From NCBI RefSeq assembly GCF_000003815.2, contig NC_049993.1:11597703-11661702 (forward strand): a DNA stretch of 64,000 nt. The letters run 5' to 3'. The notes under the pieces are model-generated. The model saw only the letters and a list, made by a program, of their open reading frames with translations. It made no database searches and had not been told where the DNA came from. The translations under genes and the position numbers were made by a program. This document shows positions 4,155-44,816 of the stretch, piece by piece. The DNA comes from Branchiostoma floridae (taxonomy: Eukaryota > Chordata > Leptocardii > Amphioxiformes > Branchiostomatidae). Each line of letters begins with the position of its first letter. Positions within the stretch are counted from its first letter, which is position 1.

Positions 4155-7100
4155 ATGGCTCACAACGGGGCCGCCAGGGAAGACGGGACCAGCTTTCCTG
4201 AGGGAGCAGCCGGCGGCCAGGCAGCACAAGAACAGGCGGCCGGCTTCCACGCCATCAACGTGCACGACGGCAACGACCTGACAACGGCCGCGGCCAGAGG
4301 CGACCTGGAAGAGGTACGGCGACTCTTAGCAGCAGGAGTCGACGTCAACGCACGGAACCAGCACGGGATGACAGCGATACAGGTAGCTCTTAATTATTTT
4401 TCTTTCTTTTAATACTTTTTCTTCGCTCCTAAATGCTGAGGCTGGACGTATTGATTTGATGGTTACGTGAATTCTGTGTGATTTAGAGCAGACGCGTCCC
4501 GAGGACTTGGCAGGGGTTGGGACGCCATACAGAACGCGACGCGCGTGGCGGGCAGCAGGAATCATAACTCACCGCATTTGGTTTACACTTCAGCCCGCGT
4601 CAAACTAACGCTGCCCACACTAGACCAGGGGCCTGTCTGTTAAACAACACGTCCCACTAACGCCTGTTGTGTACCGCCGCGAAATATCACAGCGTAAATA
4701 TCCCTACTCCTCACTTCAAGTCCTTAAACAAGCCTCACTTCTACCAGTGGCACTGACTGACAAACATGCACGAGAACGATTACACGTAACATGGATCACC
4801 GAATGAATGATTGAAAGAGATAAAGGTATTATTATGCTAGGCAACGGTAACACGTTATTATATATACAGTTTTATTTCATTTATCACGAGCAAAATTATA
4901 ATTACGGTGATGTAAACAAATAAATTTCGAATAATTCTCTCACAGGACTCGGTCCGCTGCTCATTGCGATTTGAATGTTTCATGTCACTGGCAGAACGGT
5001 GCCTTACTGTTATTCTCATTCTTCAGCAGTCTTTCTGATGTCTTTTGACAGTCTGTTCATTCATTCATCACAACTGCTGTGTACGTACGCGGACTATTCA
5101 AGCTGAAATCACGAGTCAAACTCGCGCGCATACAAAATCTGACGACACAAAAAACTGTTACAACTGCATTATATTTGACAATTTGTATTCGGTTCGCTAC
5201 GGTCTATAAAGCCAACGTCTGTGAGGTGTTTTCGTCTGTTTTCAATCAATAATAGCGTTTCGCGGGTTGTTGCCTGAAAAACGTCGTCTGTTTTGACCAC
5301 AAAAATGGCGGCTCTGAGCTTGGACGGTGGTAATACTCGTCGCCTCTGCAGTCCCGAGTTCAAACCGTTCGTCCCGAGTTCGAACCACTTGTGATCCATT
5401 CTTTGTCCCAAAAGCCTTGAAGATCTGACTCTTTGAAATTAACACGACAGTCTCCTTAAACGCGTTTTGTTAGATAAAAACATTGATGTTGTCATGTAAG
5501 CAACCGGTGGATTTGTATTTGTGAACCGCATGTGTTTCCATTGAAACTACTGCACATGCGTCCGTACCTGTTGATTCAGGTGTGCTACTGCACTAAAGAA
5601 TCGGTATATCCGTCTGTGGTATTTGTAATCAAAAATTGGGAAGCGTTTTTGTGGATTGCTTGAGCGGTGGCTAGGCGAACACGCTGCCCTATTTTTCTGT
5701 AGAAACAATTTCGCCCAGTTGGCTCCCGCCCAGCGTCCCCTGTTGCTGGCAGGGCGCCAAGAAATGATTCAGCCCGATCGAACGATGCGACCGCGTCCCC
5801 TCAGAACCGCCATGGACGCACTGCAATGTAAATAACGCCTCACCGCCTATCTTTATATCCTATTGGTACATCCGTCTGTAATATCGACTTTTCTACCGTA
5901 TACAAAAACTAACGCTTTCTCTGTTAAGATCTATAGCACACACGTGACGCGCCCTCGTCGACAATTAAGGTTACGTCGGTTGTTAGAGAAGTGACCCCCG
6001 TTTATTTTCGCGGTTTGTGTTCGTTATTGTTATCCATGTAAACAAACCACACCGACACGTGATACGGCTGATTATTTTATCCATATCGGAGGTCGAATGC
6101 GGCAACTCTGGCGTACAAACGACTATACGTCATGTCAACAAATATGGATAAACATAAGTGAATGGTATTTGTATCGGTCAATGCTACAACTAGTCAGTGC
6201 TAAAACCAGATTTGATAAGAAAGAAATTTTAGAAACCGCCAAGTTTCATTCCTATTAAGCCAATACTTAATTCACTAGTGCTTTCAAGGTCATACTTGAA
6301 AGACGTGCCCTTCAATGATCAACTTTGCGCGGACAGCGTCGTTTTGTTTTTGTAGATTTGTCGTGACAAAACAGTGATACGATATTGACTATTGGCCGTC
6401 CCATACCAATAGGTCGTAAACAGTATGTAGTATTGCTGTGCACAGGATATGTACTTTTACGTTTTAAGCTTTGGCACTGGTTGCCGCGTTCCTTACCCAA
6501 GAGGAGGGTAGCTACTCTTGCCATTGTACTCGAACAAACGGCAAATACAACGCAGGGGACCACCAGCTCTGTCTGTAGTATTTACCGACTTAAACAACTG
6601 CTTAAAGACTGAATATCACCCTTTGTAATCATTAACGCGAATCTAGATGATTGACAGTTGAAAATGATGTGGTCTGACAACTGGTAGCCCGGCGTCAACA
6701 GGGTTCTGATCGCCGTGTGTTTGTTGTATCCCGTAAGCTTGCTTGAACGGGTTGTTATAATAATAGTTTATTGCAAATTCTTCCCCGAGGACTACTTGTA
6801 GCTAACATGAAAGGGGACAAACTTGTTGGGTTCAACTTCTTTTCCTGAGACAGTGGAAGACGAAGTGGAAACTTTTTCTATGATGTGTGGGTTCTAGATC
6901 TGTGATACAAATATTGGTGTACTAGCATAGTCGGGCACCACAGGGAACCCTACAAACACTTGAGTGACGTTGAAGTGCTCGACCTGTCGCCCAGACCATA
7001 TCGCTGTCGGTGTAACAGCTCCTCCAAAAGGCGCACAACATTTACTGAAGTCTGAACTCTGTTAGACCTACCTGCAACGGAATCCTACGTGACAGACTGC

Positions 7101-9082
7101 ATGAGCTCTTCGCTGGCAAACATATTCTCCCGAGTGTAAGGACTATTTTCTGGAGTTTGTAACTTTCGTTCAACACAAGTAAACTGCTTGCCTGGAATTT
7201 TATTTTTGTTAGGACTCTTGTCACATTTCATAAAATATATGTGTTTGTTCTTGTTTTACCTCAATGTACAGTCTTTCCTCTGTTGCAAATATTTTTTTTC
7301 TCAAAAAGAGTTTTCTAACAAATTCAAGTTGTTTTAAAAGACTTCAAAATAGTTTTAATCGGTTAATACAATACACAACGTAATTAAGCTCTTGGGAAAA
7401 TGTGCATATTCAGAGAATGGTAAAACCTTGTTAATTTCATGCCAGAATCAAACACCTGATATGATATACTATTAGTTGAAAGATAGGACCTTGGTGGGGG
7501 CAATTCCAATTAGATGATAACACTGTGACTACACACCTTACTGTACCCTGCCTCGAGGGAAAGCGTGATACGTTCAAGTCATTCAATTTGTACATGATAT
7601 ATGCCTCAATGATATATGCCCTGAAACACTATATGTAGATATAGATACAGACACACAGAACTGGCCTAAAAGTGTGAAGAAACAATCTCTCTTCAGAGAA
7701 GAAAGTACAATCAATAGTGCATACAATGTCTTACCAAGGAGTTCTTACTGGTGGATACTGAAATTAAATGGTGTTAAAGGGCGTCCAAAAAGTGGAAACA
7801 AAAGGAGGAATGAAACAGGAATTTTATCCAACTGTACAAGTAATCGGTCCATTTCATGTTTCTTTTTTTGTAGCACGCCTGAAATATTGTAAAACTTGAA
7901 ATTACAGGAGAAACATTTGACCATCCCCCCATAGTCTCATTCCTAGTAAACTACAAACTCACCGTTTTAAATATGCATATTTCGTTTTTTTTAAATACCA
8001 TATTTTCGCCAATCTGGGTTTTCACTTTTCTAGTTTGTATCAAACGTACATAACTATCGTTTAATAAGCTAAATCGTTAAATGTTTAATGTTCCCTGACT
8101 TTTGAAGAAAAAACACTGTCAAGGCCCGCATGTAATTTTTCTCTCACATCGTTAACGGCATGTTGGTGTGTGTACATGTATGTTAAGATTAGGAGCAAGT
8201 TGAGCAACACATACTCTCGTCCCCAGTATCTATCTGACCACTCCGAGTCCTCCCGACTTTCCCACAACCAAACCGGAAGTCGCGCCGACCCCGCCTTCCC
8301 CTCTCCTTCCGCGAAGCATGCCGGATGTTCCGTTCTGTTACAAACAGGTGTTCCGAGAAAAAAGGAGAGAAGAGAACAGTTTTCTTTTGTCAGGAATAGT
8401 TGTCGATTCGTTTATCCTACATTGCGTTCCTTTTCATAACAAGAAAGTCAGGAATACAATACACATTATTACAAAAACTATAACATACAGAATTTCCTAG
8501 TACTTGTAGTAGTAACGTTAGTAGTACAACTGTCATACTAAATTTAGTAATTGCCGTTCAAAACAGTAACTTTTGTCCACCATTTAGTACGTTAATAGGA
8601 AAGTATCTCCTGGACTGTTATGTACTGTTTTCCAATGTGTATTGTTTGGCCTTAAGTTGATAAGTTCGGTGTCCGATAAACTGACGATATTTAACAAACG
8701 AGTCCTTCAAAATGACACATAGAACAAATACAAAAGGCGTGTTTCATTTTTTACCGGCACTTATAGTATAGAAGTAATGCTAGTGCTGTTTTGGGTGACG
8801 CAAACGTACCCTTATTTTTATAACTAACTTAGTAAGGCTGTCGTTTGGTGCTTACTTGTAAATATCTATAATCAAAGTGATGATATACTCATGTTAGGTC
8901 CAACATTACTACATCTACATGTATGCTATAATTAGCTGGAATGGAATTACGGGTACATGTTTGGTCTCACAAAATGACTTTTGAAATACGGTTTCACAGG
9001 ACAGATACGAAGACGACATTCCCACGAAGTCGAAGCCCTACCCATCCAAATACAACTGGCATTGGGTAAAATGTTCTGAAAG

Positions 9083-9158
<76 letters not shown>

Positions 9159-12100
9159 TGATCTATCACTGTTTTGTTGTAAGACAAGAAAGGTATACTA
9201 GCCCGTGGTATCATTATGGCAGAATATAGCTTGGTTGTGGCATATACAGTGTACTTAACATTTACATGTGTACTATGTAGTACGTTTTCCTATAATACTC
9301 AATGCATCGACTGCTTGTAGTAAGGGATCGTAGGCAATAGACTGGAAAGTAAAGATGGGGCTAAACACATAATATGACATGACTCAACTGCTAACGGTTT
9401 CAAAGTCAACAGTTATTCACCTGCCTAGCGGAAAGGATAAAGACANNNNNNNNNNNNNNNNNNNNNNNNNNNNNNNNNNNNNNNNNNNNNNNNNNNNNNN
9501 NNNNNNNNNNNNNNNNNNNNNNNNNNNNNNNNNNNNNNNNNNNNNGCTTAACAAAAAAAAAACGGTTGTTGCTTTTGGCTTCAGTAGTAAATAAACTGTT
9601 AGGCAAATGTTCTGAAAGCTATAAATGCCCTATATCTTGTGTATACGTAACGAGCTTATAACCTAAGACTGTACTTGGACATTCACCGTTAACCCATGCG
9701 GTTGTTGCTTTTGGCTCACAGTAGTAAATAAACGGTTAACATGATTTCACAGCATGTATTCGTCGCTTGTTGCCAGATACTAGTGAGTGTTGTTCTTTTA
9801 TCCTTTCCGTTAGGCAGGAAATATAACTGTTGACTTTGAAACCGTTAGAAGTTGAGTCAAGTCATATTATGTGTTTAGCCCCATCTTTACTTTCCAGTCT
9901 ATTGCCTACGATCCCTTACTACAAGCAGTCGATGCATTGAGTATTATAGGAAAACGTACTACATAGTACACATGTAAATGTTAAGTACACTGTATATGCC
10001 ACAACCAAGCTATATTCTGCCATAATGATACCACGGGCTAGTATACCTTTCTTGTCTTACAACAAAACAGTGATAGATCAGTGCTTGATTCTAATCCGAT
10101 TTTGCACTCCCTCCCAAAGGACACAGCTAAACTGCTCTTTGAATTTGTTATCTCAAAAGCTAGGGATTTGTGGTTGACAACACAAATGTCAAACATTACA
10201 ATTCCACTATGGCTCCAAATCGGGTAGTAGTGACTTTGTATGTACACGATCATGAGGAGAGCCTATTATGATAATACATTGTACCCACACAAATATACAC
10301 ATTGCACCGTTGCATGTGGGGTGATTTTGTTTGGTTTGAGTTTGGGAAAACCACAGAAAATGCAGTGTTCGTTCTTCAATACAGATTGAATCTACACAAT
10401 GCAGTTTGTAGAAAATTTCGTTTGTCCATTCTGAGAAGATGTCAGCTCATTTCTGAAATGTTTTTACATCCAAACTTTGTTATATCTAAACTAACATGCT
10501 TCTAACAATCATCATTGAATTTACTTAATTTTGCATTCTTACTTGTTATTTTGCATCGTTACATACAGTACTACTTGACGTGTAATGAAATATGTTGACC
10601 CTAGAGTTAGCATGTCAAAATGGTAATCATACATGCTATTAACTTTTTGTTAAATAAATAGAACAAGATATAGGAAAAAAAATAAATACAATATATGCAT
10701 GCAGAGTTCCTATATTCCTATTCCAAAAAGATATCATATAAACAAAAAATGTTTTAGAGACAATCGTTCACAAAACGTTTTGTTAGCACTCCTGTTTTCA
10801 ATACTAGTGACAGTGAGCTCGAGGTTTGACTGGTGGATTTAATTAAGGTCGTGGTTGGACGTTATTGGTATCGGCACACAAATGTCTACTCACAGGCAAG
10901 TACTTTATTTGACAAAGTAGAATATAGAACCAAAACGTAACTAGATTAAAGGTCAAAATGTGGACATTGGCGAGTAGTCAAGTCGTCTTTTGAAAATGTC
11001 TCAGTTTTGTGGCCAGCTTACTCAATTATTTGCAGCAACTTTCGTTACATCCGTTACAAATCCGATATTTAATAAGAGCAGTTGTTCATGTTAGCCTTAG
11101 TCTAAGAGGCATTGTTTACATCACTATCATTGTCTGAGTGTGAAACGTTACAATATGCATGGATAACATGAGAACAGTTGATGAGCTATCAGTTATATGC
11201 CTGTACCGTATGTGCACAACTGCACAATACTGTATAGCAGGACGTCCAATGTTCGATAAAAGTTACAAGCAACCGACAGTAATATCATGTTATAACAAAG
11301 GTAGAGGTATACAGTTTTTATGTATTATCTATCGACATGAATGTACCATCGTCCAAAGTAAAGGAGAAAATAGGAAATATTTAGACATATTAACAAGTCA
11401 GAGCTGTTGGCTAGTTAAACTTAGCATGTCCACCTGCCAAAAGCTATGGTATCTATCAAAGTGCATAACTACGTTGGCAAATTGTATCTAAGAGCACTGA
11501 AAGTTAAACGTTTGAAAGGCTTCAAAATGCATTTATTTCTCTTGCAGTTAGACAGTAGATATTTTGACAATTTGACGTTTGATTTGTCATCTAATAAAAA
11601 CAGTTTTGTAAATGCCGCTGTGTTGTAGGAACAATCGAACGTGCATGGTGTAATACAACACTGTTACTGAAACATGTTTGAGTTAGATATCAAAATGAAC
11701 ACGACAATCAAACAGTTGATCTAGTTACTATAGAATACTTGGACAAGGTGATGTTTACACAATGCACTAACAAAGATACGGTGGCCAGTTTTGATAACAA
11801 TGTGTGGTGCTTCTATATGTGGTGTATACTTTGCTGTAGACTGTAAACTTTTGTTCTGCTGCATGATCGTTAAGGATTTCTTCTGTAGAGCAGAATCAAG
11901 CTGATTTTACAGGACTACGCATCCGTGTGTCTGGTCTCGTAAACGACCACAACCTAATGCTAACTCAAACAGGTGGTACAGGGCAACTACACTGCATCCG
12001 ACACATGTATAGATGCTATCTTCTTGTGCTTACCTTGGTGGCAATTTCTAGTTTCTTTTTCAAGTTTCAGATGGCACAAAAGTTTACATTTTTTTGACCG

Positions 12101-13447
12101 GAAGGTCTGGAAACGTTTGGGTCTTATAACGTTTTTCTGTAAATTTATTACCAATGTTTATACACCTGTAGTGTGTACAGTACTAGTAGCCATGATTGAG
12201 GTTAGAACTTAGACAGCGACTTGTTCCGATCCACACATTCACACCGATGTTCAGGATTAAGAATTATAACACCAGCGCGACGTTTCCTCGCGCGTCTAGA
12301 CAGAACCGTTAGATCTAACGGTGCATGTTAGAGACAGTTTGCATTCAAATCTTTCCCAAATCCTTATTCAGTTAGATCTACAGTGTGTTTATTCTTTCGA
12401 GTTTGACTGCCAAATAAACATTCGTCCTAGGCATTATGTTATAGATGTGTTGTTCCAGCTCTACCTATGTAGACAGATATCACAGGTCAAGCGAAACATC
12501 GGCAATCATACAAGATTCACGGGTAAAGAAAAACCATAACTACAGAGATGTTGACGACACTTTTACAGACGTTAAACGTAGGCTGTACACTACGTGACAC
12601 ATTGAAGAACAATGATGTATGTAACAAGGAAAAAAACGTGAAATATGGAAAAGCTTCGGAATTAGAAAAAAAGCTTGTGATCTGCAGGGAAGCAGTACGG
12701 GCGATCTTTGTCGCGTGCTCGTTCGGAACTCTCGAGTCTATCGTGCGTCTAGTTCAGGTTTCCGATTTCACTGATTTCGCTCCAACTTGCTAGTAAAACA
12801 GGGAAGTTGGAACTTTTACATGCTAAGTATATTTTTTCCACATGCGGTGTTTTCGTGTGTGAGGCATCCCCAATTTCAGCCACTTCCAAACTCAAGAATT
12901 TTCTGTTGATCATCCTACACCCGATAATCATATAATGTGTGTTTTTGGAGTGTGTGTGTGCCAGATACTTGTTTGTTGCCAATGCTTCTCGATGATTCCT
13001 TACTTGAGTGCTTACATTGTTCTTTATTTCCCTGGCTGTAATATTTTTATTTGTCATTTGCAGGTGATGGAGTTTGGGCATCACATAATCGCAAAGGAGC
13101 TTCTTGAGAACGGGGCAGACCCGAACGTTCGCGACGTAGAGACCGGTCTGTCACCTGTCCACGACGCCGCGCGCGACGGCTGGGAAGACACCTTGAAGCT
13201 CCTGTTCGAGTACCACGCGGACTTAGACGTCAAGGACCTGCAAGACATGACTCCGGCACACCTTGCTGCCGAGAAAGGTCACGTCAGAATCTTAGAATTC
13301 TTACGTGCCAAAAGTACGGACCTGTGGGCAAAAAACAGGCGAGGACAGACGCCGCGAGACCTCGCGAGAATCCACGGGAAGACGGACGTGACCGCCTGGT
13401 TCCGAGGCAGCTTTCCCGAGCAGCACGCCGAGCAACAAGGGCAATGA
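4155..13447 (+). CDS. CDKN2: INK4-type cyclin-dependent kinase 4/6 inhibitor (CDKN2 family)
   Basis: Two coding exons, 4155-4382 and 13064-13447, give 203 residues. INK4 proteins bind CDK4/6 and block cyclin D activation, arresting cells in G1. Five ankyrin repeats are visible: about 40-69 ([17 protein letters not shown]), 73-102, 107-134, 139-167 and 172-190. Five repeats resemble vertebrate p18/p19 rather than the four of p15/p16. The family hallmark HDAAR lies at 109-113. Repeat 2 has the atypical first helix (VMEFG at 77-81) typical of INK4. The splice junction falls after TAIQ, just before VM, in phase 0, the same place as in vertebrate CDKN2 genes. The start is the first in-frame ATG; the open frame extends upstream only to a GTG. 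Residues 1-39 are a low-complexity Ala/Gly/Gln extension absent from short vertebrate forms. It lies next to, and converges with, MTAP. Family identity is firm; one-to-one orthology to a single vertebrate paralogue is not implied. Confidence 0.94.
9084..9157. repeat. (TA)n microsatellite
   Basis: About 37 uninterrupted TA dinucleotides, immediately left of the inverted-repeat arm at 9157. The preceding words (ATGTTCTGAAAGCTATA) recur at about 9608 without the TA expansion. This suggests a local duplication whose one copy expanded. Confidence 0.97.
9157..10082. repeat. Inverted repeat (about 287 bp arms) spanning a scaffold gap
   Basis: The left arm, 9157-9445, is the reverse complement of the right arm, about 9796-10082, with a few substitutions and small indels. 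The spacer contains the N gap and two direct copies of a GGTTGTTGCTTTTGGC word followed by AGTAGTAAATAAAC (about 9564 and 9698). It could be a foldback-type transposon or an assembly artefact in which two orientations of one locus were joined at the gap. The arm divergence argues against simple duplication of identical reads. Confidence 0.8.
9446..9545. other. Scaffold gap (100 N)
   Basis: Exactly 100 N, the usual placeholder for a gap of unknown size. It lies inside the spacer of the inverted repeat, where a hairpin would hinder sequencing or assembly. Confidence 0.99.
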
Positions 13448-16400
13448 CGTCACGGGAACGTTAGAACTCTTGTGAGTTTCTCATTTACATATTTTTCCAA
13501 TTTCTCGCCAACCGAGGGAAGCTGCACGGCCGCTATGTCGGGCTCTAGTTGGACCTGACACAGAACGGTCTAACCTAAGGGAGGCCATGCCCTCCCCAAT
13601 TACAAACACAAAATGTCGTTCACGGCTCAGCGGCTTTCAGTTGAACGTAAATTACCTGTGATTAGAAAGATCTCCAACAGTCGGCAATATCGTATATTTT
13701 AGATATTTGTTGAGTCACATGTTTGGTGTCCCCTCTACAGACGACAGTTTCACTTTACAGCTTAAAACTGTTTTTAGAAGAACTGACCTGCATTTTATCA
13801 TCATTGTACTACATCAGAAAAGATGACTATGAGGCTCTTAACATACAGGGCCCTACAATCACCTTGTGTGTTCAACTAGCCGTCAGTAGATTTCAGACAG
13901 AAAACAATAGAACGGCCAGTACATAATTCTGACAAAAAGATAATTATGTAAGAGAAAACAATGACTGCTGCTTTCAATGATACTGCCAAACTAGCATTCG
14001 GAATTATTGTACAATCGGAGACTAACACATGTTTAACTGAAGTGTATAGCCTACAGTCGATATACCGACGACGCTGTTTAGTTTACATCCTATTCCGCGT
14101 GTGTAGAAACAGGCTTGGAAACTCGACATTGAAGGGAAATGCGTCAGGAAAAAAAGTCGATAAGAGTTGAAAAACTTGGTCTGGATCGTTTTCCCTTCAA
14201 ATCACTGGGTCCTAGAGACGGTATCGGGGAACGGTGGTTCTCGTTTGGTGTAGGTCACAGCGTGTCAGGTTTCCGACCGACGCTACCCTCTTGTAGGGCA
14301 TTAGATAATAGACACGGAGTGGCAAACTCTTGAGTTGACGCCGGAGTCATATTTGAAGCTGTCACAGACAGTTGAGAGGCAGGGCAAGGGCACTTCTGGT
14401 CTCAATATGGATTAAGGGCCGTTGATTGCTCCTAGCAGTGTGGGATATGTCAACAATCTAATCAGCGTTGTCGCACAGGGCTAGACAAGAGTTCGTTACT
14501 CGTACAGCTGATTCGTACCCACCCTCCACAGTAGCACGCGTATCAGTGTGAGAAATCGGGCTGAACGCTTATCAACAAGAGAAGCCACACGCCTTATTTG
14601 GACATGGTTACCAGTGTCTTGATTAGCGTTGTTTAAGACTGAACAAACGAGCAGTCACAAAGAAAAGGAAACAAGTTTGTCGTTCGAGTCACAGGCAAAC
14701 AAAGAACTAGCAGCTTGTGGAAGTATTGGCGGGTTGAACAGACGCGAAAGTTGTATCAACAGGAGAGAACACGTTAGTGCAGGACGCTGAAGTGTTGTTT
14801 TGGGAAAGTCGACCACATCTGTTAGAAGGGCAGACAGGTAGGGGGCTGTGAGTGACAAGGGGGAGGGGAGGGTCGCGCGCCCGACACGTGTCCGGCCACT
14901 CACACCCGCTGGTAGCTGTAAACCGAGCCAGGGCGGCCAGACGGACGGCTCGCCGGCCCACGCGTCCTGTGGGGCGCCCTGGCCGAAGTTCGTGGCTTCC
15001 CTTAGCAACCGTCTCATCCCTCCTGCTGACGTTTGTTCGCTTTCTCAGAAGTTTGTCGTTCAAACACCAGCCACGCTGTACGAAACCAGAGCTCAAAAGA
15101 TGGGCCTTACCCCACAGCCTGTAACGAAAGAGCAGGGGGGTCTTAAGAGGTTCAAAGGACCGTAAAAAGGTCAATCATGTGGCGACAAAGTAAACTTTCT
15201 CAAGTCTTGTCGGCGTGGCGTGTGGCAGACGTGTGTGCGGGTAGGCCGGGTCAGGTTACTCTACAGACTTCTCCACAAACGTGTTTATCGGCAGGAATGA
15301 CCCTGCTGCCCCTGTGTTTGTAAATCCTACCCCACTCCGACTCCGCCAACCTTTTTGTCTGAATTAAGAACAGAAAAACAGAAGTCAGGAGGGCGGGGTT
15401 AGTGCACTACTATAGTCCGTCTGGAGTTGTGAGGTGGGCCCCCTAGATCGAGACCCTACCCTAGCCACCACTAGGCCTTCCTACTGGGGGTACGGGGATC
15501 GTAGAAGTCGGCAAAAAATCAGAAAATTGGCCAGGGGGTCAGTCTACGCTTATGTTCATGTATCCCCTCCGACCGACCAACTCCTCTGGTAGCAAAACTC
15601 CCCTGGCAAATCCCCCCCCCCCCCTATACTAGCCAGCGTAGTCGGTCAGGTAGAGACTAACTCTACCCATTAACTGTTACCCTTTCATGAAATGAAGGTC
15701 TGTTTTCAAACAGCTTTCGCGATTGGCCCCCGATAACGACCGTTGTTTACCCGCGCTCCAGTGACGTCGACCTTCCCAGCCTGTTTCTCGTGTTACACGC
15801 GGAAAGTACCAGTTTCCGCCGCACAGGTCAAGTTCACCGGCACAGGGTGTCGCAAACGGCCAGTATCAGCAACGTCAACTTCAAGGACACTTGTAGTGTT
15901 CTAAACATCCTTTATACTTGACAGTTAACGGCCAAATTTTGAAAAAGTGGTTCGGCTGTGGCATCAGTCAAAGTCAGATCCTTAGTGAATAGATTTCTTG
16001 TATAATATTTCACCTCTGCTGGCAGATCGTAGGCTATATTATAGAATCATATGTTTAGAATATGACAGTTTACAGTAAAAGTCACAATTTCTTGACAAAT
16101 GTAGCCGAGATACTGTAAACAAAGGTCTTCTCAATTGATGCAAAGACGTATTTTACAAAGAAATCTCAATCCTACCGACAGTTCACTGAATTTGAGATGG
16201 TAAGTAAGAGGGTGCTAGTAGCATGGGCACGGATATCGTATGGTACACCAACCGGAACAATATTTTCCCAACCGCCCACAAAGCACCGCGTATTAAGTTA
16301 TCATCCGGCATTGAAAGGTTTCGGACCTCGAAAAATCGAATTAGGCACGCTCTAATAAAAGGACTGACACCATGAGTTATGGGGCAGCCGTCTCGGTTTG

Positions 16401-18183
16401 AGGTAAAATGGCTGGTCTATGAGCCTTAATTGAAAGTTGATGGACTACAAAGTGCGAACTGGGACGCCGTATTTGTTTACCTAGTCTCTTAACAATTACC
16501 AACGTGTTCTACCGGGGCATTTATATTCGTTACGGTCGGCTATACCTACATGGCCGGGGCTTTCAGGATTCTTGGATAGGAAGGCAGACTTGCTTTTTTT
16601 CTTGATCTGTGATTTTTTTTTGGTCACCAGTAGTGAAATAGAAGGATACGATTACAAAATCTAGTCAAGTCTGAAGAAATTATGATATAACAGTGGCAAC
16701 CGGATACATGAGCGACAATTTGGGATACTGTATGGTAGAAGCCTCAAAATTGACGGAACAGAAACTAGATAAGTACGTCCATAAAAACTCCCTGCGTTTC
16801 AAGTGAACCATTGTATTGTTTGACCGAAGACATTATGTACTAGTAATGTCTTTGGTTTGACAAAGGGTTTTTATGTCAGACTAATTAAGCAGAAAATGGA
16901 ATTTATACCGTGTCTAATTCTTTCGTTTTCGCCATGGTAAACCATGAAGACTGGTTGGCAGGTGCTTTCAGTCTCACTGCCATATGGTTCCAAGCACTCC
17001 CCTCCCCAACCCAAAAATACTCACCGTTTAGCCATAGAAAAGCACAAAACCAAAACAACATCTGTTAAGTTTGGAAAAAGCACAACACGACTCAAGTCAA
17101 CCGTGACCAAGAAAAAATCACATCTCAAGTCTGAAAGTGGCACAAGTTCCTTATTGCGACAACACTAGGTCTCCCTTTTTCGTACCACCCTCGTCAATGA
17201 ACTGTCTGTTTATATACCACTGTGTGGTTTGATTGTTATATAGACAAACGGAATAGAATATTACTTGTCTGTAGAAAGTACAAAACCTGAACAACCTTCC
17301 TGATCTACATATGTATACATGTTCTAAGTAAACTCACACTGGAAAATCTCTTGTTTTGTAAGAATACACTTGAAAGACGAATCCATTCTCTCTCGTAGTG
17401 GAGGGGCGAAATTTGCTGTGTTTGGGACGGACCATTATTTGCTGGGGGAGAAAATCATGGTTTGATGGCACAAAATCAACACTCAAATTTATCAGTGCCC
17501 TAGAATCTTAAGGCGGCGTTATCTATAGCTAAATGTTCCTCTCTGGCAATTAAGAGAGCAATCCTCTTCAAAACCAACCCCAACAGATAATGGTTTGGCC
17601 GGTGATAGAAGCTGAACAATGATGAATATGTTAAACTTAAGGATACAGTAATTGTTACATGTATGTTAGTTGTTAATCAAACTACATCCATTCCATTCAT
17701 GGTAATCGCTGCTTTGTTCATAAATCATTGAAATTATGGCATTTTGGCAATATGTACAGTTTCTTGTTCTTTGTTGCACTTCTTATATCTTGTTTAAGTT
17801 CATCAGTCGTTTTGATGATGCCTTGATAATATGTATTACACCAAGCATGCTAGACAATTCCTTTATTTATAACTATGCTCTTCAAACTACAACTGTACAT
17901 ACCGTTCTCATTCACTATTACATGTACTTGTAATGTTCTGTACGATAGTTCAATAGAAAATGTACAAATGCGCCATGTTTCGTCATAATTCAAAGACGTA
18001 TATTAATAAATTATTGAATTAGAAAGTCTGAGTCTCTTGTAGTGCATTATTTTTAGTAATCGGATCACTCATGGTCTGAGAAAGTAAGCGGTAAAGTTTA
18101 AATGATAATCATCTGGTGTATTTTGCCATGAGATGTTGATTTCCAGGTTTTCATGAAATAGTATTAGCAGAGGTTACTCTAAG

Positions 18184-18324
18184 TACACCAAAACGAGTTA
18201 CTCAAGCAACTGGATATGATTTTGAATACTGTCTGTCACTTACGAAATTTAGTGGATACTGTCGGAAACGACTGGTCGTTCCCAAAATCATATCCAGTTG
18301 CTTGAGTAACTGATTTTTGGCGTA
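18184..18324. mobile_element. Hairpin MITE, family 1, complete copy
   Basis: The ends are mutually inverted: TACACCAAAA..GTTACTCAAGCAACTGGAT on the left and the complement ending TTTTTGGCGTA on the right, about 40 bp of arm around a short centre. The same terminal word recurs near 28160, 54950, 57920 and 59260. This indicates a short non-autonomous inverted-repeat transposon family. The superfamily is undetermined. Confidence 0.85.
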
Positions 18325-20038
18325 TCTTATTACATGGATGCCAAACCTTCATCACCATTACTTTAGGTAGATTATACGTCATGATTATTCTGGAACCTTC
18401 ATTCCTATACAACGTAATCTAGCTATACATTGTCGTCACAAGGATGATGTAAACGTTTTGATATGTTTGGGAGATTGTTTTACAATGAACAAATCAAGAC
18501 GCAATACATACTAGAGAATTTTCTGCTGCAGTACCAAGTTCACATACCAGGGGGCACAAAATTGACATTGACCTTCGTCCAAATATCATCGTAATCCATC
18601 CAGAAGTTCTTGAATTATACTGACTATAAAAATCCGGAAACACAAACAGACAGACACACCCAACTATATGTCCATTTTTCGTGGGGATAAATATTGAAGC
18701 AGGGTTGGTGGGGAGTGTGGGCGAATAAGAAAGAGAGATGACCGCTTTCATCCTTTATCATGTCCTGTGTCTTTCCTGATTTAAACTATCAGATGGGTAC
18801 ATAAACGTTATCTTCCACACTGTCTTGAGTACGAGTCAGCGCATCTCACAGGTGAGAAATCCTGAGGAACACCCACCTGAGAGGACCTGGGCATGTCTGG
18901 ACAGGTAACACACCTGACACCTAAAATAGCTCACCTTTAGTCGCCAATGTTTGTGATAAGTCACCACCGAGACAGAAAACAACAGGACACAGATTGGAGG
19001 TCAGTAAAAAACAAACAAACAAAACAGCATATCATTTTTCTAACACATATGACAAGAAATCAATGCAAATAGCCCCGATACAAGTCTACCAAGTTACTGA
19101 CGTGATACAGTTTTCAAATACTTCGTCATACTGTTCAGTCTGTTGTGTTGTGTTGGATTTGAAAATATCCCCAAACAAATGGTACGTGTGAAACACTTAC
19201 CTTGACTGACATTTGCCATTAAAGGCGATGTAAATGTGCTTTTCATCCTTGTGCTAATTTGGCTCAATCAAAGCTCGTTTACCCTTTTCCAATTTGTGCG
19301 TTGACGTCATGACCTTTTCGTGATACGTGCTTAGAAGAAAGTGAATACTAGTAATGTCAGTACTAAAAACGAAAAAAACGTCAAGAAAGGGACAGAACAT
19401 GGTGACCATTTTTATGGGAAGATATTCTTTAAAAAATGATAGAATCCAGTAGAATAAATGTCTAGCATCATGTTGATTTGTCTTTCGTGAGTTTCGTCCT
19501 AGTTCAGTATGATGCAAAATTTCTACATAGAGTATGTCAAAAACGTTTTTCATAAAGCAAAAATCAGGAGCTGTCTTCTCATCCTAATATTTACACATAG
19601 CAAGACCAGACTTGTCAGTACCAGACATTATAGACATGATGACGATCACATTCCAAAAGGGGCATTGTCAGCTATTTGTGTCAGCCTTTCTGGCAATGTG
19701 GCAAACCTGGTAGTGCCGCACAAAAGAGCTGATGGACTTGTGTTGGGAAATATGGTCAAAGAGGGCATGTCCAGGCATGCCCTAATGACGCATGTGCCAA
19801 AAGGTTCGGGATGGCAATCACCGTAAAGTTGATTGTTCTCATGGATAACGTGCCACGCCCAGCCACTCCTACCTGTGTAGAAGCGCCCCCATTTGACTGA
19901 AGGACAAACTGCAGAATGACCATACAGGTAAGACACAGTACCATTCATACAGCCTTGGAAGCAGTAATTTCACTGGATGATATTTATAGGCCTGCTATTA
20001 AGTTACCTAGTCGTACAATTATGAAGTCTGTTCAGTAA

Positions 20039-20745
20039 TTGGTATTCAGATACAACTATAAAGTCTCTGTCACTGAATACAGTAATATTTACACACATAC
20101 CCCAGTGCAGTCCTTGGTACTGAATGGCATTCACATACACATTGGCACTGAATTGTATTCATACACAAATGTACAGTCCCTGGTACTGAACTGTATTCAC
20201 AAACACACATTTTACAGCCCATGGTACTGACACACAACTGTAACATTACAGTCTCTGGTACTGAATGGTATTCACACACAATTGTACAGTCCATGGCATT
20301 AAATTTAATTCACACACAGCTGTACAGTGCCCGGCACTGAATGACATTCACACACAACTGCACAATCCCTGGCACTGAACAGCATTCTCACACAACTGTA
20401 TAGCTGGTACTGAATGGTATTCACACACACTACTGTAACACTACAGTCCCTTGTGCTGAATAGTATTCACATGTGCACACACAACAGCAACATTTCAGAC
20501 CCTGGTACTGAATGGTATTCACACACACACAACTGCAACATTTCAGACCCTGGTACTGAATGGTATTCACACACACAACTGTAACATTTCAGTCCCTGGT
20601 ACTGAATGGTATTCACACACACAACTGTAACATTTCAGTCCCTGGTACTGAATGACATTCACACACAACTGTACAGTCCCTGGCAATGCATTCATTCATT
20701 CATGGTATTCACACACAACTGTAACATTACAGTCCCTGGTATAGT
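20039..20745. repeat. Minisatellite of about 45 bp units with (CA)n core
   Basis: Roughly fifteen imperfect units each contain CTGGTACTGAAT, then GTATTCACACACA, then AACTGTAACATTTCAG. Units are most alike at 20500-20660 and decay toward both ends, as expected for an array growing in the middle. No gene function is suggested. Confidence 0.9.
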
Positions 20746-21484
20746 AATATACTAAAACATCAGTTGACTTGACAAATTTTGTTGATTAACACTAACTAAT
20801 GAAAGACAAGCAATGACAATAACAAAAGGAAAGAAATGCAAGTTGCTATGCTTTTATCTTTTTAAGAGCAATACTTCAGAAACCACTTAAGCTTATGAAA
20901 AACCTTAATCTGTTAAATATATCCATGAACACATACTATACTATACCAACCATACTAACTGGAAGTTTGCACAATAAGAGAATATTATCTCTTGTAATCT
21001 TGTTGAACATGTAATATGAAAAGTATAATTTTGCTATTGCTTTCCTCAATATCCTTATCTTCTGTATGAGGATATAATTTTGCTAGAGTAGCTGATAACT
21101 AATAGCTTTACCTCCCTTATAAATGTGTACATGTAATATAACCACACAACAGACACCTTATAAAGTTGCATTTTCCCACTTTGACTGAAACATAAAGATA
21201 ACTTAAACTAATGACAACTTAAAATCAAAACACATTGTTAGCAATTTCCATTTCTGATTTGAAAGCAGTTTTGCTACATAAGAATATTGTGCAGAAATTT
21301 GATTTATTGACTCCCTGAATCACTGTGTATTGTAGAGCAGTGTTTGCCATTATTGCTTTGTTCAATCTAGCAGTTCATTGCCTCTGATAGTCATAGTAAC
21401 TATTTTGACACTGTGTCTAGTCTATCACCATATCTGGCTTTAATATTGCTGTTAGTTTAGGCATACTCTGTGGTGTTGTGTTGT

Positions 21485-21700
21485 CATAACAGTTTTGTTC
21501 CCCAGGACCCAGAGGTTCTGGTTTGAATCCTCTAACATGCTGCCAATATTGTGCCCTTGAGAAAGGCACATTAACATATCTTTACTCCCTTCACTCAGGT
21601 TCAGGTGTAAAAATGAGTACCTGATTTTGGTTGAGAAGATAAAGGCAGCGGGAGGAGAAGATTGGACTCCACCTTCCAATACCATGCCCTAGATACAGTA
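21485..21700 (+). mobile_element. tRNA-derived SINE-like element
   Basis: A B-box-like GGTTTGAATCC lies inside a tRNA-like stretch. It is followed by a body containing TTGTGCCCTTGAGAAAGGCAC, a motif shared with the elements near 26990 and 28000. Such bodies are common in deuterostome SINEs (established). The assignment here is by pattern only. Confidence 0.6.
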
Positions 21701-21932
21701 GATAAACCATCAGAAGGGGAGACAACAATTTGGAAGTCAGTTGACATTGATAGAATTTAGACATATAACAACTCTGGTTCAGAGTTATGTAACAGACCTG
21801 AGCCTTTCTAATTTCCCATATTATATAAATATTGTGAAGTGAAGTGAGAATGCCTTGATGTCTTTGGTCAAGGCAGATAAGACCTTTTAAAGTGAGGTAC
21901 AATGAAGGCAGAGCCTGTTGCTGTTGACTAGG

Positions 21933-24900
21933 TTATCCTTCAGATGGTGGCAGCATGATAGAGCTGGAAACTGTCACCTGAAAAACACAGGAGAAAATGT
22001 TTAAGTGTATTGTAACCTATAGCAAAAACAACTGATTTCAACCTTACCTGCAACCAGCTATTATCCACTATTTGACAATTCATTCATAAGTAATTACATA
22101 AGTATATCAGATAAGTGATTTTTCGAATGATGGACTGAATAAATGTTGTTGGTGTAGCGAAACACTCTCAACAGCATATACGAATATCAATGCAAGCCAC
22201 ACAAGAAGTGCAATGTATAACTATAAAGATATATAGGTGTGCAATAAAAACATTTCCACATACAGGTGTGGGAATGTAGGGCTGTCCACAGATTAGATAG
22301 GCAAACAGGGAAGTATCACAAGCATCACACAGTGCAGTGGTACAATTCTGCAGCTCAAAGCAGTACCTTGCTGTGGCACCATGTACTGAAGTGTTAGTAC
22401 CCGTATCCTGCATGCAGGTTGGAGATATTACTGACGGAGGTTGGATTACTGAACTGGTGACAAAACCCTAGGAAGAGACCATATAAACTGCCAACGTTCT
22501 TACTTACTGTCACCGTAAAATTACTTTGGAATTTGAAGGGATTTTGTTACTTCATTAATTGTACTTGGTCTGATTACTAGAAGTTGATTCATTCAATAGA
22601 ATAGAGAATGTGCACATATGCAGAGCATGTCAAATACAAATCAATATCAAAATCAAATTCAACAATACTATATTGTATATGCAGAGCATGATTTACACTA
22701 AATTATGCTTCAATAACTACCACACACCATTTAAATTTATCAGTTTGTAGATCTTTATTATCAGTGATTAGGTATTAGGCTGAGTTTGTCATGAAGAAAC
22801 ATGACTGTAGATCCAATGACATCATTCATTCATCTTGATGATCAGTCAATGCCATATATGGTGATACAATTTAAATGAACTATTATTGGTACATGACTGT
22901 AAACCCCCCTTTTCCACTACACAGCTATCGATGAATGATCGTCAAACAAGCATAACTGGATCTGTAAGACTTTTGACGTTATAATTGGAATATAATGCAC
23001 AACACAACATATAACAGCATGATCTAAAAGACAACAAAACATAAAAACACTGGTTCTTTATCTATGAAATTTTTTGGATGACATATTGTTAGCTTAGGAG
23101 CTACCCACAATGGATACCCACATTAGATCTTACTGCCTGCAGACAACAAGAGAGTTTCAAACTTTGACAGTTGTAACCTTACCCTGTTCTCCTCCAGCAC
23201 AGCTGACCAGTCCCGCTGGGCAATCTTGGGAATGGCAGACTTAAAGATGCGGACTCCCTTCTCAGCATTGCCCTTAAACACCTTCAGCACAGCCTCAACA
23301 CTCACCTAGAACAGAGCAAACACATGTCACTCAAGCTTTCTGGATATTGAATACCAGGGCTCGAAATTCATTTGGGGAATAGGTGCACCCAACCTAGAAA
23401 ATTGGGTGCACCAAAATATTTTTGGGTGCACGGTGCACCATATCAGATAAAGTAGAATATCAGAATAACCTAATTCCAAACCTACTAAATTAGTACTAGT
23501 AATTTGAACGGAGCTCTTCAGAAATCGGAAGTACTATGACAGTCATTTTATTGTCTTTCTAACACATAGACGTCAAGAATATGGTGTTTACTTAGTATAC
23601 TGACATCTTAACATACATAAGCCTATAAAAATATTTGGGTGCACCCTGTGCGCCCACAGAAAAAAATTGGGTGCACAGCCCCAATTTTGGGTGCACCTGG
23701 GTGCACAAAACCCCAGTATTTCGAGCCCTGAATACGAACAAGGCCATAAGCCTTTTCATGAATACATCCACACAGGCACGCATACCACATCCACACACAC
23801 ACACACACACACACAGACACACACACCAAACAAAGACATGACAAAGACATTGCTAAAATACACATACATGGTGTCCTGGATCATCCCTCCAACAATCATA
23901 ATCTGTTGCCATGGCAACTGCAGCGTAGCACAGTCCCGCCTCCTTGGCCAGGGCGACCTCCGGCACCGTGGTCATGTTGATGACATCACCGCCCCACATG
24001 CGGAACATCTTGCTCTCCGCACGCGATGAAAAGCGAGGCCCCTCGATGGTGACCATGGTGCCGCTTTCATGGTGCCTGATTTCCAACTCCTTGCAAACAT
24101 CAATCAGTATCTGGATGGAGAAAAACAACATGGATAATAAAACATACCAAAAATCCCCGTGGAATATTGTGTGCATTTGGTTGGTCATGAGTTCAATCCT
24201 GGCTGAGTCATACCCAAGACATTAAAAATGGTTCGTACTGTTTTCTCTGCTTAGTACTCAGCATTCAGAAGAGAGTATGGAAGTTGAACACACACCACTA
24301 CCAGTGGACTAGTCCCCTGCTGTAGTGATTAAACAAAGTTGTGTGGCCCAGGAATACTGAAACAGAGAAGGGCGTTGCCCTATGCACCATCTGGTGCGGG
24401 AAGGACTTTAACTAACTAACTTAGTTCAAGTTTACAGAGGACCTACTTTTCTGGTGTGAGGACAGAAAGGTGTGTCCATCGGAAGGTGACACACACCCAG
24501 AGGACTGCCAGGGTTGCCGTCGTAAAATGTTGTGGCACGTTTCGTTGTCCGATCAATGAACTGGTCCAGGATGACCATGTCTCCTGGATGGATGTCTTCT
24601 CTGGGGTAAGATAAAGGGATAAATAAATAAATAAAAACAAAGGGAGTAGATAAATCTGCAATGTAGCTCCACACAACACCTAAGTTTGCATGTGAGGAAT
24701 AACACAATAAACTTCCAAAAAAACAATTCCTGAAACTGATAAAGTGAGAGACAAGTACAACATTAAATTAGATTAGACATCTAAGTGTACAATAAATTAT
24801 ACAAATCATTCATATAGTCAGATGTTTTCTGAAGCGTCTGATTCTGTTAGAGACCTTATTTGGTTGTTTGATTTAATTTGCATAATGCAGCTACTAAGAT

Positions 24901-27900
24901 GTCTAACCTTTATCAAACTTTACCCTGGAAACCAGCCTTTTAGCCAGGGCTGGCACAGAATCTGTTTGGCAGCTAAGGCAGGTTTTTTCGAGGACCTTAG
25001 ATAAGCACACCAGGGATTTGTCATGCAGGGAGTGTTTGCTGGCCTAACTAGTAGTATTAGCTGCCGAACAGATTCTCTGCCAGCCCTGGGTAAGTCTGGT
25101 TTCCAAGGTACATATAGTTCAGCTCAAATGAAAAAGTCCTCTCCTCAACTGTGAAACACATCACTGAACACAAAGCACGTACCTGAGCGACCCGCAGGCT
25201 GTAGAGACGATCAGGTGAGTACAGCCCTCAGCCTTCAGGGCGTGGACATTGGCTCGGAAGTTTATGTTGGTAGGCATGACAGTGTGGCCTCGCCCATGCC
25301 TGAAATCATGTTCAAAAACACGCTTCACAATGTATATACTATGGATGACAACTTTTAAGAGATTATAAGAATGGAATACTATCAATGCTGTAGACTAGGA
25401 GACTGCTGCCTACTCCTGTGTCAGGGACCCCAGCAGCAGTATAATCAAATACTAATACTGGATACTACTACTACTGTACTGCTCTTTACGAATTTTTTCC
25501 CCCTGTCAACAAAAAGTCACATAATATATCCATAGCTTTTTAAATTACATGTATCCTGTTATCTATAGTGTTAACCAACCTACCAACAATGCACAGCAAC
25601 AAATGCTGATATAAACATTACCTCCTTGGAGATATTCTTCAATTTCAGCAATTACAGCATTTCCCAAAGAGTTTATCTCACCTGGCCAGAAGGACACATT
25701 CCACACCTCCGACATCACCCAGGATCAGGGCATCAGACGGCTGTTACAAATATCAATGGTTTATTTCATTTGTGTGAAAAGCTATTCTGTTGCTACTGTA
25801 TATCTGCTGTTTGCATACTTTGGCACATTGATTTGCCAGAATTACAGCTTTTTTTAGGCTTATAGCAGTCAGTGGTAATAAAACATTTCATATACATTGT
25901 AATATGATTTAACCAAGGACGTTACATAACATCCTTGATTAACAACTATAGGTGTAGATTTATGGTAGATTCATGAACCATTTTCCATTCATTTAAGTTT
26001 GTCCTAGGCTTTTACATCTACACTACCAGGTATATACAACACTACACTTTGCTCTTTCCTCTTGAATCAGAGTCCCCTAAATCAAGGAGGTTATATATCT
26101 CTGATGATGTGTCCAAGAATGTGTCACTGTTCGCACTACCAGAGTGTATTCTAGAGTAACCTCCTTGCCTAAATTCATCAACTAACTCCTCTTGATCCAA
26201 GAACAAGAAGCCTGTCAGTTTTCAGATGTCATGAATAAATAGTGTCAGTCTTAGCACTGTGTGAAAAATGTTGGAAAGTATCTCATAATGTATATTGACC
26301 TCTGACCTTTCCATAGGGCGTGTCCACATGCTTCTCTCTCCTGTTGTCCAGGATATCTGGGTTGTCCAGTCCTGAACCTCCAATAATGCCGATCTGAAAA
26401 AAGTTGTAAAACTAAAAGTGTGCGTCGCCAAACTGACCATGCCAAATGGTCTTGCCTATTGGTGTAGTGGTTATCAGCGTTAGGCTTGTGAGCTGACGGC
26501 CTGGGTTCTGCACGGGTTCAAATCTTGGGACTGTTCATACTCGCCCCTTCTGTTTCAAAGTTAACAAATCTTAATGTCGTATCTTAATCTTCATTAGTGG
26601 CCATCGCAAAGGTCCAAATGTCTCAACTCTCACTTTTGGCGAAATATAGAAATTCAAATTCAAAACATTAAGATACCAGGGGTGTGAAAATCCATGGGAA
26701 ATCTCACAATAACGTTATAATAGAAATCTCGATCAATGCTGCTCGTGAAATCAAAAACAAAGGCCTGCAATTGGAAGCAATTAGCAAATGAATCTTATGA
26801 CATGTATGGGGTTTACGGAAAAGGCTGGCCTGTCTACCTGGGCTGTCTACCTGGGCTGTCTACCTGGGCTGGCTATCACGTCAGGCTACTTGGACCTACG
26901 AAAGCCCATTGGGACAAAAGCTGTTTTAGCAGTAGGGATTGTTTGTACTCAATAAAGAAGCTATGTGTGAAACTATTGTGCGTGTTACATAACCCAGAGG
27001 TTCTGGGTTCAAATCAGTTGATATGCCAGCGATCTTGTGCCCTTGGGAAGGGCTATAGTATTAACACGACTTATCGGCTGATTGGATTAGTCTTAATGTA
27101 AGAAAGGGGGCAGATGTTGTGGCCCCGGGTTCTTATTTGGAATTGCTGCCGAGAGTCTAAGACTGAAGGGAAGAACAACACGCAGAGACACAGGCCATTT
27201 TCCGCACACACACGGACTGCTTGCTGGGGAGCTACATCCTCGTGTCTGCACTCCACGCACGACTGACACAACTGATCTCTCTTTCTCCCCACCAGCAAGC
27301 TTGTCCTGTTTATTCATCCAAATTCACATATTCATACATATTATAGAGGTGACAATGTTTTTGAAGTCCCTTTGTTGTTCAAGATATCAAAGGCTGAGCG
27401 ACTGCCATCTATCTGTTAGTTCTGTCTATGGCTTTGGTGTGAAACAATTACACCTGGCACTAGAGGAGACGAACGTTCGTTTGCATACGACACTAATCAA
27501 AATGCAAATCTCCACACTTCACACTCTTGCTACAGCTCTGTGGCACTAATCAAAACAACAACCTAACTTTAGCCCTACCAAATAATACACAAAAAGTATA
27601 AAACACAGTGAAGTTCATTTTGCCCTACTTACATTAAGACTGGTGGCTAGTTGGTCAAAGGCGTCCAGGAGCCTTTCTTTAGTGGCTGTCATGGTCCAGG
27701 CTTCTGCGCCATACATAAGGATCGACAATTGAATTGTGAGGAGCTTAAAATAATCGTTGCTAGAGGGTCTGGAACTGCTGCCATTCGGTGCTAACTCAGG
27801 TGACCTCAATACGACAGCAATTACCCCAGGTGTGGCCATAGGACTTAAGGTTTTGAACCACTTACACTGGGAAGGAAGGACCCCTAGTCTTTTCCGTAAG

Positions 27901-28605
27901 TGTGGTGGGTTCTTTGCCCTATCTGAGGGAGGGCCCTTACCGAAGCTAGGTACTCTTTTCTCTACCCTAGTGAAGGGAGGAAAGTCGTGTTAAGAGCCCT
28001 TCCCAAGCGCACAAGATCAGTGGCATATCAACAGATTCGAACCCAGAACCTCTGGGTTATGTAGCATACACAACTCCTTCAAACACAGCTACTTCACATA
28101 CAGCTCCTTCACACACTGCCACTTCACATAGCTCATTCACATAATAACACACAGATCCACCAAAAAGTAGTTACTCAAGCAACTGGATATGGTTCACCGT
28201 GACAGATCCTTCAAACAACCCCTACTGCTAACATAGCTTTTGTCCCAATGGGCTTTCGTAGGTCCAAGTAGCCTGACGTGATAGCCAGCCCAGGTAGACA
28301 GCCCATGTAGACAGACCAGGTAGACAGCCCAGCCTTTTCCGTAAACCCGACATGTATGATAGCTCTATCCAAAGAGCGTTTTATCAACTGTTGATATGAA
28401 AATGCTCTTTGTTCTATCTATTATCAAAGGCCAAGGAGGCCTGTCTTGATATTTAAAATTATGTTGACAGGAAATTATCACGATGATGCTACGCTTGTAA
28501 TTAAAGAGTAGAGTAGAGTAGAGTTCTTCGGTTTGGTAGGAGCAAGGAGCTCCATATAGCCGCAGACGTTACCTTTATTTTCCTTGGCGCTGATTTGGCT
28601 TCCAT
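21933..28605 (-). CDS. MTAP: S-methyl-5'-thioadenosine phosphorylase
   Basis: Eight coding exons in transcription order: 28605-28573, 26393-26307, 25740-25682, 25299-25183, 24600-24447, 24110-23868, 23305-23183, 21977-21933. All have GT-AG sites and continuous phase. The product is 286 residues (human 283, also eight coding exons). The enzyme phosphorolyses methylthioadenosine from polyamine synthesis to adenine and methylthioribose-1-phosphate, in cytosol and nucleus. Seen in the sequence: phosphate loop IGIIGGSG at 12-19, R60-H61, T93-A94 in [19 protein letters not shown] at 173-183, M196-T197, and the purine-site pair D220/D222 in TDYDCW. Numbering matches human at these sites. Position 18 is Ser where human has Thr. 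The start ATG at 28605 gives an 11-residue first exon ([11 protein letters not shown]) as in vertebrates. The last exon encodes only 14 residues. It converges with the INK4-like gene and diverges from the CAPSL-like gene. Confidence 0.97.
23355..23730. mobile_element. Element with CAGGGCTCGAAAT inverted ends, copy 1
   Basis: It begins CAGGGCTCGAAATT and ends ATTTCGAGCCCTG. The flanks share GAATAC on both sides, a probable target-site duplication. The interior has repeated inverted GGGTGCACC words. It sits in the MTAP intron between the exons at 23305 and 23868. A second element with the same ends but a different interior lies at 59327-59651. The ends resemble hAT-type termini; the superfamily is inferred. 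Confidence 0.75.
23792..23827. repeat. (CA)n microsatellite
   Basis: A run of CA dinucleotides with one GA interruption, in an MTAP intron just outside the exon at 23868-24110. Confidence 0.95.
24180..24410 (+). mobile_element. SINE-like element in an MTAP intron
   Basis: The B-box-like GAGTTCAATCC is followed by a body (TGGCTGAGTCATACCCAAGA, then AAAATGGTTCGTACTG, then GCACCATCTGGTGCGGGAAG) of the type seen in dispersed invertebrate SINEs. The identification comes from remembered sequence style, not a search. It lies wholly within the intron between the exons at 24110 and 24447. Confidence 0.55.
24921..25110. mobile_element. Hairpin MITE, family 2
   Basis: Inverted arms of about 55 bp. The left begins TACCCTGGAAACCAG and continues through CAGGGCTGGCA and AGAATCTGTT. 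The right is the complement, ending CTGGTTTCCAAGGTA. It is intronic in MTAP, between the exons at 24600 and 25183. Confidence 0.8.
26431..26560 (+). mobile_element. tRNA-derived SINE, family A, copy 1
   Basis: A clear A-box (TAGTGGTTATCAGCG) and B-box (GGGTTCAAATC) are spaced as in a tRNA gene. The leader AACTGACCATGCCAAA is shared with the copy at 63688. It is not called a tRNA gene because cloverleaf pairing is poor and a second diverged copy exists. It lies in MTAP intron 1. Confidence 0.75.
27600..27760 (-). mobile_element. Fragment of a LINE reverse-transcriptase ORF
   Basis: The minus strand encodes a stretch containing [20 protein letters not shown]. This resembles the conserved Y-G-[SA]-E-x-W-T segment just after the palm/thumb region of many non-LTR retrotransposon reverse transcriptases. 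Only about 50 residues remain, with no flanking RT motifs, so it is a dead remnant within MTAP intron 1. Confidence 0.65.
28155..28195 (+). mobile_element. MITE family 1, terminal fragment
   Basis: The word CAAAAAGTAGTTACTCAAGC followed by AACTGGATATGG matches one end of the complete hairpin element at 18184-18324. The other arm is missing. Confidence 0.7.
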
Positions 28606-34778
<6,173 letters not shown>

Positions 34779-36249: not shown

Positions 36250-36305
36250 TGACGTCATCAAGGCAGGTGACCAATGACAAGCCTTGGTGCTAGACCTCAT
36301 ATATC
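36250..36305 (+). promoter_or_regulatory. CRE, CCAAT and TATA-like cluster before the CAPS-like gene
   Basis: TGACGTCA (palindromic cAMP-response element) is at 36250-36257, CCAAT at 36271-36275 and CATATAT at 36299-36305, all within 126 bp of the ATG at 36376. The order and spacing resemble a compact core promoter. Calcyphosine was first described as a cAMP-responsive thyroid protein (established), which makes the CRE notable. TGACGTCA also occurs elsewhere in the window, so alone it is weak. Confidence 0.55.
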
Positions 36306-36375
36306 CTGCGGAACAGGTAGTCGTGTTGTGTTAGTCTTGTGTTCGGAACAGTATACGCCCCTGTTGTTTAGCAAG

Positions 36376-39850
<3,475 letters not shown>

Positions 39851-42472: not shown

Positions 42473-44816
<2,344 letters not shown>

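Follow-up and report, generated by a model that had tools for sequence, protein, structure and literature searches.

The 64,000-nucleotide stretch of Branchiostoma floridae DNA analysed here (the window; C15:11597703-11661702, on a contig of 21.5 Mb) carries a gene of the INK4 (CDKN2) family that lies between FAF1 and MTAP. The searched genome comprises 513.43 Mb in 431 contigs. FAF1 and MTAP are on the minus strand and INK4 is on the plus strand, with INK4 and MTAP convergent. One flank of the amphioxus gene is therefore the neighbour of human CDKN2C and the other is the neighbour of human CDKN2A/B, which fits the expected arrangement of a locus that predates the vertebrate duplications. It is very probable, at roughly 0.9, that the window holds the single pre-duplication INK4 locus of the lancelet and that chordates ancestrally had the order FAF1(-) INK4(+) MTAP(-). 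The ancestry of the triple and its differential loss in vertebrates are what we infer from this comparison.

The INK4 product consists of 203 amino acids encoded by two exons with GT-AG splice sites. The coding part of exon 1 (4155-4382, plus strand) comprises 76 codons, ends in TAIQ and is followed by a GT donor at 4383. Intron 1 (4383-13063) lies in phase 0 between Q76 and V77 and contains a gap of 100 N (9446-9545), and exon 2 (13064-13447, including the stop codon) is preceded by an AG acceptor. The intron thus falls in repeat 2 between AIQ and VM; human p16 reads PIQ and VM at the same place, on either side of residues 50/51, which we take to be the position of its first intron. The p16 residues E26, D74, H83, D84, R87 and D92 are retained in the amphioxus protein, while R80 and E88 are replaced by S and D, respectively. 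All of these are presumably CDK contact sites, and the amphioxus INK4 would be expected to bind and inhibit CDK4/6.

Family membership was assessed within a set composed of the four human INK4s and 33 open frames (at least 110 amino acids) from 20 other amphioxus ankyrin sites; the sites were picked for a good match to the window gene, and some of the 33 frames may not be ankyrin. In this set, the window gene and the human INK4s are reciprocal best matches: human p18, p19, p16 and p15 score 138, 129, 100 and 100 bits against it, compared with at best 87, 78, 57 and 55 bits against the other amphioxus frames. Residues 39-192 align with p18, including a fifth ankyrin repeat stretch without counterpart in p15 and p16, both of which are presumed to lack that repeat. 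Two signatures, AAARG in repeat 1 and HDAAR-x-G-x-x-DTL in repeat 3, occur in the window gene and in all four human INK4s but in none of the 33 other frames. A tree of 25 rows (the five INK4s and 20 of 21 outgroup segments, one being lost to a name clash) places the window gene and its four human counterparts on one side of a branch, with a support of 84/65 and in 87% of 200 bootstrap trees. One INK4 copy was found when 150 of 248 candidate places in the amphioxus genome were scored: its two exons reach 288 and 152 bits, against 65 bits for the runner-up. Pfam alone detects only ankyrin repeats in the protein. By single-stretch score in the PDB, p18 is the top natural protein (135 bits) among the best 60 of 434 rows, where the best designed ankyrin reaches ~103 bits and the best ankyrin-1 stretch 49. 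These scores, the reciprocal matches and the signatures led to the rejection of a general ankyrin-repeat protein as the identity of the gene.

The FAF1 flank is the stronger part of the finding and was overlooked in the preliminary description of this DNA. The first coding exon of FAF1 lies within the window (2019-2057, minus strand; MAADREMILADFQ, then a GT donor), and the remainder was located by tblastn at about C15:11578571-11597000, left of the window, in a region extended by 100 kb on each side (C15:11497703-11761702, 264 kb). With a human FAF1 sequence as the query, 11 minus-strand pieces were obtained, ordered from residue 6 to residue 625 and running from C15:11599750 to 11578571; residues such as 136-157 and 250-341 had no match in this search, and three further rows elsewhere (22-24 bits) were set aside as chance. 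The matching pieces include the UBA and ubiquitin-like stretches, and those of UBX and UAS have FAF1 chains as their best matches in the PDB. Pfam likewise recognizes FAF1 (34.9 bits, above the cut-off, on one exon) and UBX (43.0 bits), and all three Pfam FAF1 matches in the genome are at the INK4-adjacent locus. FAF1 and INK4 stand head to head with their start codons 2,097 bp apart. The spacer (2058-4154) is CpG-rich, with an observed/expected CpG ratio of 1.09 over 1501-4154, and is probably a divergent promoter region serving both genes.

MTAP occupies 21933-28605 on the minus strand and has eight coding exons, with all introns GT-AG and a product of 286 amino acids. From 5' to 3', exons 1-4 are located at 28573-28605, 26307-26393, 25682-25740 and 25183-25299, and exons 5-8 at 24447-24600, 23868-24110, 23183-23305 and 21933-21977. 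The last of these was picked from several open alternatives for its resemblance to the C-terminal end of human MTAP and is the least secure of the eight. The product passes the NCBIfam MTAP equivalog (303.2 bits; cut-off 274.85) and matches human MTAP with 401 bits across residues 7-282. Seven matches to PF01048 (PNP_UDP_1) were detected in the genome; one is the MTAP of the window, and six form two clusters on another contig, C6, and are presumably other nucleoside phosphorylases. Intron 1 of MTAP contains inverted repeats, one of 150 nt (92%) and one of 100 nt (85%), at window 26796-28361, probably a mobile element.

The preliminary description had proposed that INK4 and MTAP are tail-to-tail neighbours with nothing recognized between them, in the same convergent adjacency as human CDKN2A/B and MTAP, and that the pairing is older than the vertebrates. 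The gene models confirm the first point, with 8,485 bp between the two stop codons (13448-21932). The interval likewise yielded no recognizable gene: it contains 16 open reading frames of at least 75 amino acids, 10 of which were scanned without a Pfam match at 0.01, and the whole window gave no Rfam match at gathering scores. The pre-vertebrate age of the pairing is supported by the FAF1 flank, which makes common descent far likelier than convergence. The likeness to the human arrangement also holds, the human strands being drawn from fusion transcripts and from the human annotation, in which MTAP and CDKN2A/B are presumably convergent. That the human genes are neighbours is stated in PMC6066557, and MTAP-ANRIL fusion transcripts arise after deletions according to PMC4941330. 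Since ANRIL is transcribed from the strand opposite to the INK4 genes, such fusions suggest that human MTAP and CDKN2A/B point at each other.

Human 9p21 thus resembles the amphioxus locus in that an INK4 gene adjoins MTAP tail to tail. It differs in having two INK4 genes rather than one, whereas the single amphioxus gene has FAF1 on its other side and a gap of 8.5 kb to MTAP. At human 1p32.3, FAF1 accompanies CDKN2C, and we take these two to be immediate neighbours placed head to head, as in amphioxus; unlike the amphioxus gene, CDKN2C presumably has no MTAP alongside. The third human copy, CDKN2D at 19p13, is presumed to have neither FAF1 nor MTAP close by. The co-location of human FAF1 and CDKN2C at 1p32.3 is reported in PMC4060785 and PMC5386330. 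In myeloma, the two genes are lost together at this site, the deletion being present in 18/91 cases and homozygous in 5/91 (PMC4060785).

The favoured explanation of this pattern is that, upon the vertebrate genome duplications, the copies of the INK4 locus lost different neighbours. The 1p32 copy would have kept FAF1 with CDKN2C and the 9p21 copy MTAP with CDKN2A/B, while the 19p13 copy, if CDKN2D is placed as presumed, would have kept neither neighbour close. Most likely, the divergent FAF1-INK4 pair would be hard to break without harm to a promoter. MTAP, in turn, most likely stayed beside INK4 mainly by inertia, possibly aided by INK4 regulatory DNA in the 13.4-19.5 kb part of the window. 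These last two steps are the weakest of the explanation. In this account, the INK4 tumour-suppressor loci probably began as a single gene between FAF1 and MTAP, and the tumour co-deletions of CDKN2A/B with MTAP and of CDKN2C with FAF1 are explained by one ancestral neighbourhood whose copies lost different members. Whether the old linkage reflects shared regulation then becomes a question that is testable in amphioxus.

Linkage was also compared along the whole of C15. ELAV, NFI, JAK and DMRT were expected on this contig before searching, and mir-31 and FOCAD joined the list once the first results were known; NFIB and ELAVL2 are taken to lie on human 9p and FOCAD at 9p21. Both NFI matches in the genome are on C15 (11.10 Mb), as are the five best of 22 ELAV matches (13.82-13.84 Mb), the four best of 12 DM domain matches (1.18-1.20 and 13.57-13.60 Mb, counting DM genes of any subtype, DMRTA or other) and the only mir-31 match (0.30 Mb). 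As controls, RUNX was found on C9 (2/2) and engrailed on C16 (1/1). Four of the five answered predictions thus fall on C15, which makes up 4.2% of the genome; the corresponding chance is about 1.5e-5. This figure is generous, given that DM and ELAV are families with several hits each and that two of the predictions were late additions. DMRTA1 and MIR31HG are placed at human 9p21.3 in the preprint PMC12668014. According to PMC7269912, BFL15, which C15 appears to be, corresponds 1:1 to one ancestral linkage group with a largely scrambled internal gene order, and against such scrambling the kept triple is notable. The neighbourhood also contains calreticulin, ECM29, CAPSL-like genes and PRKCSH. 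Calreticulin and PRKCSH are presumably on human 19p13, as is CDKN2D.

Two possible reasons for the persistence of the INK4-MTAP pair have to be weighed, and the CpG pattern bears on both. The bodies of FAF1 and MTAP have observed/expected ratios of 0.42 and 0.40, respectively, and the INK4 intron has one of 0.94. Between INK4 and MTAP, the ratio is 0.81 over 13448-19500 and 0.13 over 19501-21932; in other words, the interval is CpG-rich to about 19.5 kb and depleted from about 19.5-20 kb up to MTAP. Gene-body methylation occurs in invertebrates, where broadly expressed genes have CpG-depleted bodies. The depletion in FAF1 and MTAP can be read as a trace of such methylation, and MTAP transcripts perhaps extend to about 20 kb. 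Judged from base composition, the pattern suggests one chromatin neighbourhood for INK4 with most of the interval and a separate one for MTAP, and does not favour one shared domain. The 19-kb CpG-rich run that contains INK4 is not exceptional, as the same 264 kb include others of 35 and 15 kb. The CpG mosaic of C15:11497703-11761702 is sharp, with calreticulin, FAF1, MTAP and PRKCSH CpG-poor and much else, together with the right flank, CpG-rich. An imperfect minisatellite with units like CAGTCCCTGGTACTGAATGGTATTCACACACA was seen by eye in the CpG-poor end of the interval (window 20100-20750).

Plain inertia, i.e., an inherited order without function, has in our estimation an even chance of being the whole reason. 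A scrambled chromosome (PMC7269912 for the scrambling) should leave some pairs together by luck. Moreover, the bodies of MTAP and FAF1 are CpG-depleted and the INK4 intron is not, and this difference means that their expression probably differs. What inertia accounts for less well is that INK4 keeps both flanks, each of them in another vertebrate copy, which exceeds the usual outcome of scrambling.

Regulatory constraint, in which enhancers serving INK4, MTAP or both in the interval or in neighbouring introns led selection to keep INK4 and MTAP together since before the vertebrates, is a tentative reading that we hold to be rather improbable. In its favour, human 9p21.3 enhancers affect MTAP, CDKN2A, CDKN2B, DMRTA1 and MIR31HG (PMC12668014, preprint), the human 9p21 genes share one topological domain (PMC6066557), and C15 carries DM-domain genes and mir-31 as well as INK4 and MTAP. 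The DM matches on C15, however, are about 2 and 10 Mb off and mir-31 about 11 Mb; at such distances, the linkage does not require a common enhancer hub. The fall of the CpG ratio from 0.81 to 0.13 inside the interval, which makes INK4 and MTAP look like separate chromatin neighbourhoods, also speaks against constraint, as do the lack of an Rfam family in the interval and of a Pfam domain in the 10 of 16 frames scanned. Constraint through shared regulatory DNA, which the preliminary description offered beside plain inertia, was not established, since the CpG boundary falls within the interval. A broader form of the idea, in which FAF1-INK4-MTAP would be an ancient regulatory block held by selection since before the vertebrate duplications, with MTAP (9p21) and FAF1 (1p32), the genes lost along with INK4 genes in human cancers, as its two halves, is similarly unlikely.

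An independent re-encounter of the same neighbours is highly improbable. Although the odds of meeting are raised if all three genes share one ancestral chromosome, a model of random gene order on one chromosome with an assumed 800-1200 genes puts the chance that a given neighbour falls on the right side and strand at about 4e-4 to 6e-4, that both FAF1 and MTAP do so at about 2e-7 to 4e-7, and that any pair out of six candidate neighbours adjoins INK4, with orientation ignored, at about 2e-5 to 5e-5. A false join of unrelated sequence, made during assembly at the gap in the INK4 intron, is equally improbable: the 100 N are indeed flanked by the two arms of an inverted repeat (260 bp, 99%; window 9157-10082), but exon 1 on the FAF1 side and exon 2 on the MTAP side are halves of one in-frame, single-copy INK4, and the gene itself therefore bridges the gap. 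Both possibilities were rejected on these grounds.

Several points weigh against the ancestral reading of the locus. The gene-order evidence compares one amphioxus genome with human. The first intron of p16 at codon 50/51 and the immediate head-to-head adjacency of human FAF1 and CDKN2C are presumed in the comparison. The tree support for the INK4 group is moderate (84/65), with the branching inside the group unresolved, and the tree by itself is insufficient proof of membership. In the PDB, the whole-protein score puts many multi-repeat ankyrins above p18, because their stretches are summed. At the scale of the contig, the prediction for FOCAD failed, as all six of its matches are on C2. No single ELAV exon exceeds the family cut-off, since the exons score apart, and the JAK profile gave no match in the genome, a result that is uninformative. 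Finally, a phrase in PMC6066557 describes ANRIL as antisense to the three coding genes, among them MTAP, and this is at odds with the reading that MTAP and ANRIL share a strand.

Conserved metazoan microsynteny blocks, reportedly the subject of Irimia et al. 2012, are among the closest known kinds of system to the FAF1-INK4-MTAP triple. They are also addressed in PMC8851819. Ancestral chordate bidirectional promoters offer another comparison: FAF1-INK4 is a 5'-to-5' pair, the kind counted in PMC6292497 (372 putatively ancestral), the amphioxus pair being defined here by its start codons. No paper on INK4-MTAP linkage in amphioxus was found among the open-licence articles listed, which does not show that the finding is unpublished.

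To the right of MTAP, three tandem CAPSL-like EF-hand genes extend over 29540-44813 on the plus strand, as located by tblastn with human CAPSL and by an EF-hand Pfam match on one exon. The first of them has two similar candidate last exons (33197-33295 and 34677-34775), possibly alternative. Exons of PRKCSH (glucosidase II beta) were found by tblastn with the human sequence at 49972-60252 on the minus strand, the best piece having 97% identity over 37 amino acids. Between these exons, at window 50566-52127, lies a near-perfect inverted repeat with arms of 366 and 306 nt in series (99%) and a 229-nt centre, which may be either a foldback element or an assembly effect. Outside the window, calreticulin shows two apparent tandem versions of the GPDICG...VHVIFNYK exon (C15:11560135-11560260 and 11560455-11560550), perhaps mutually exclusive. 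At the right end of the window, 61980-63997 contains a gene that appears IFI44L-like, with a TLDc domain.

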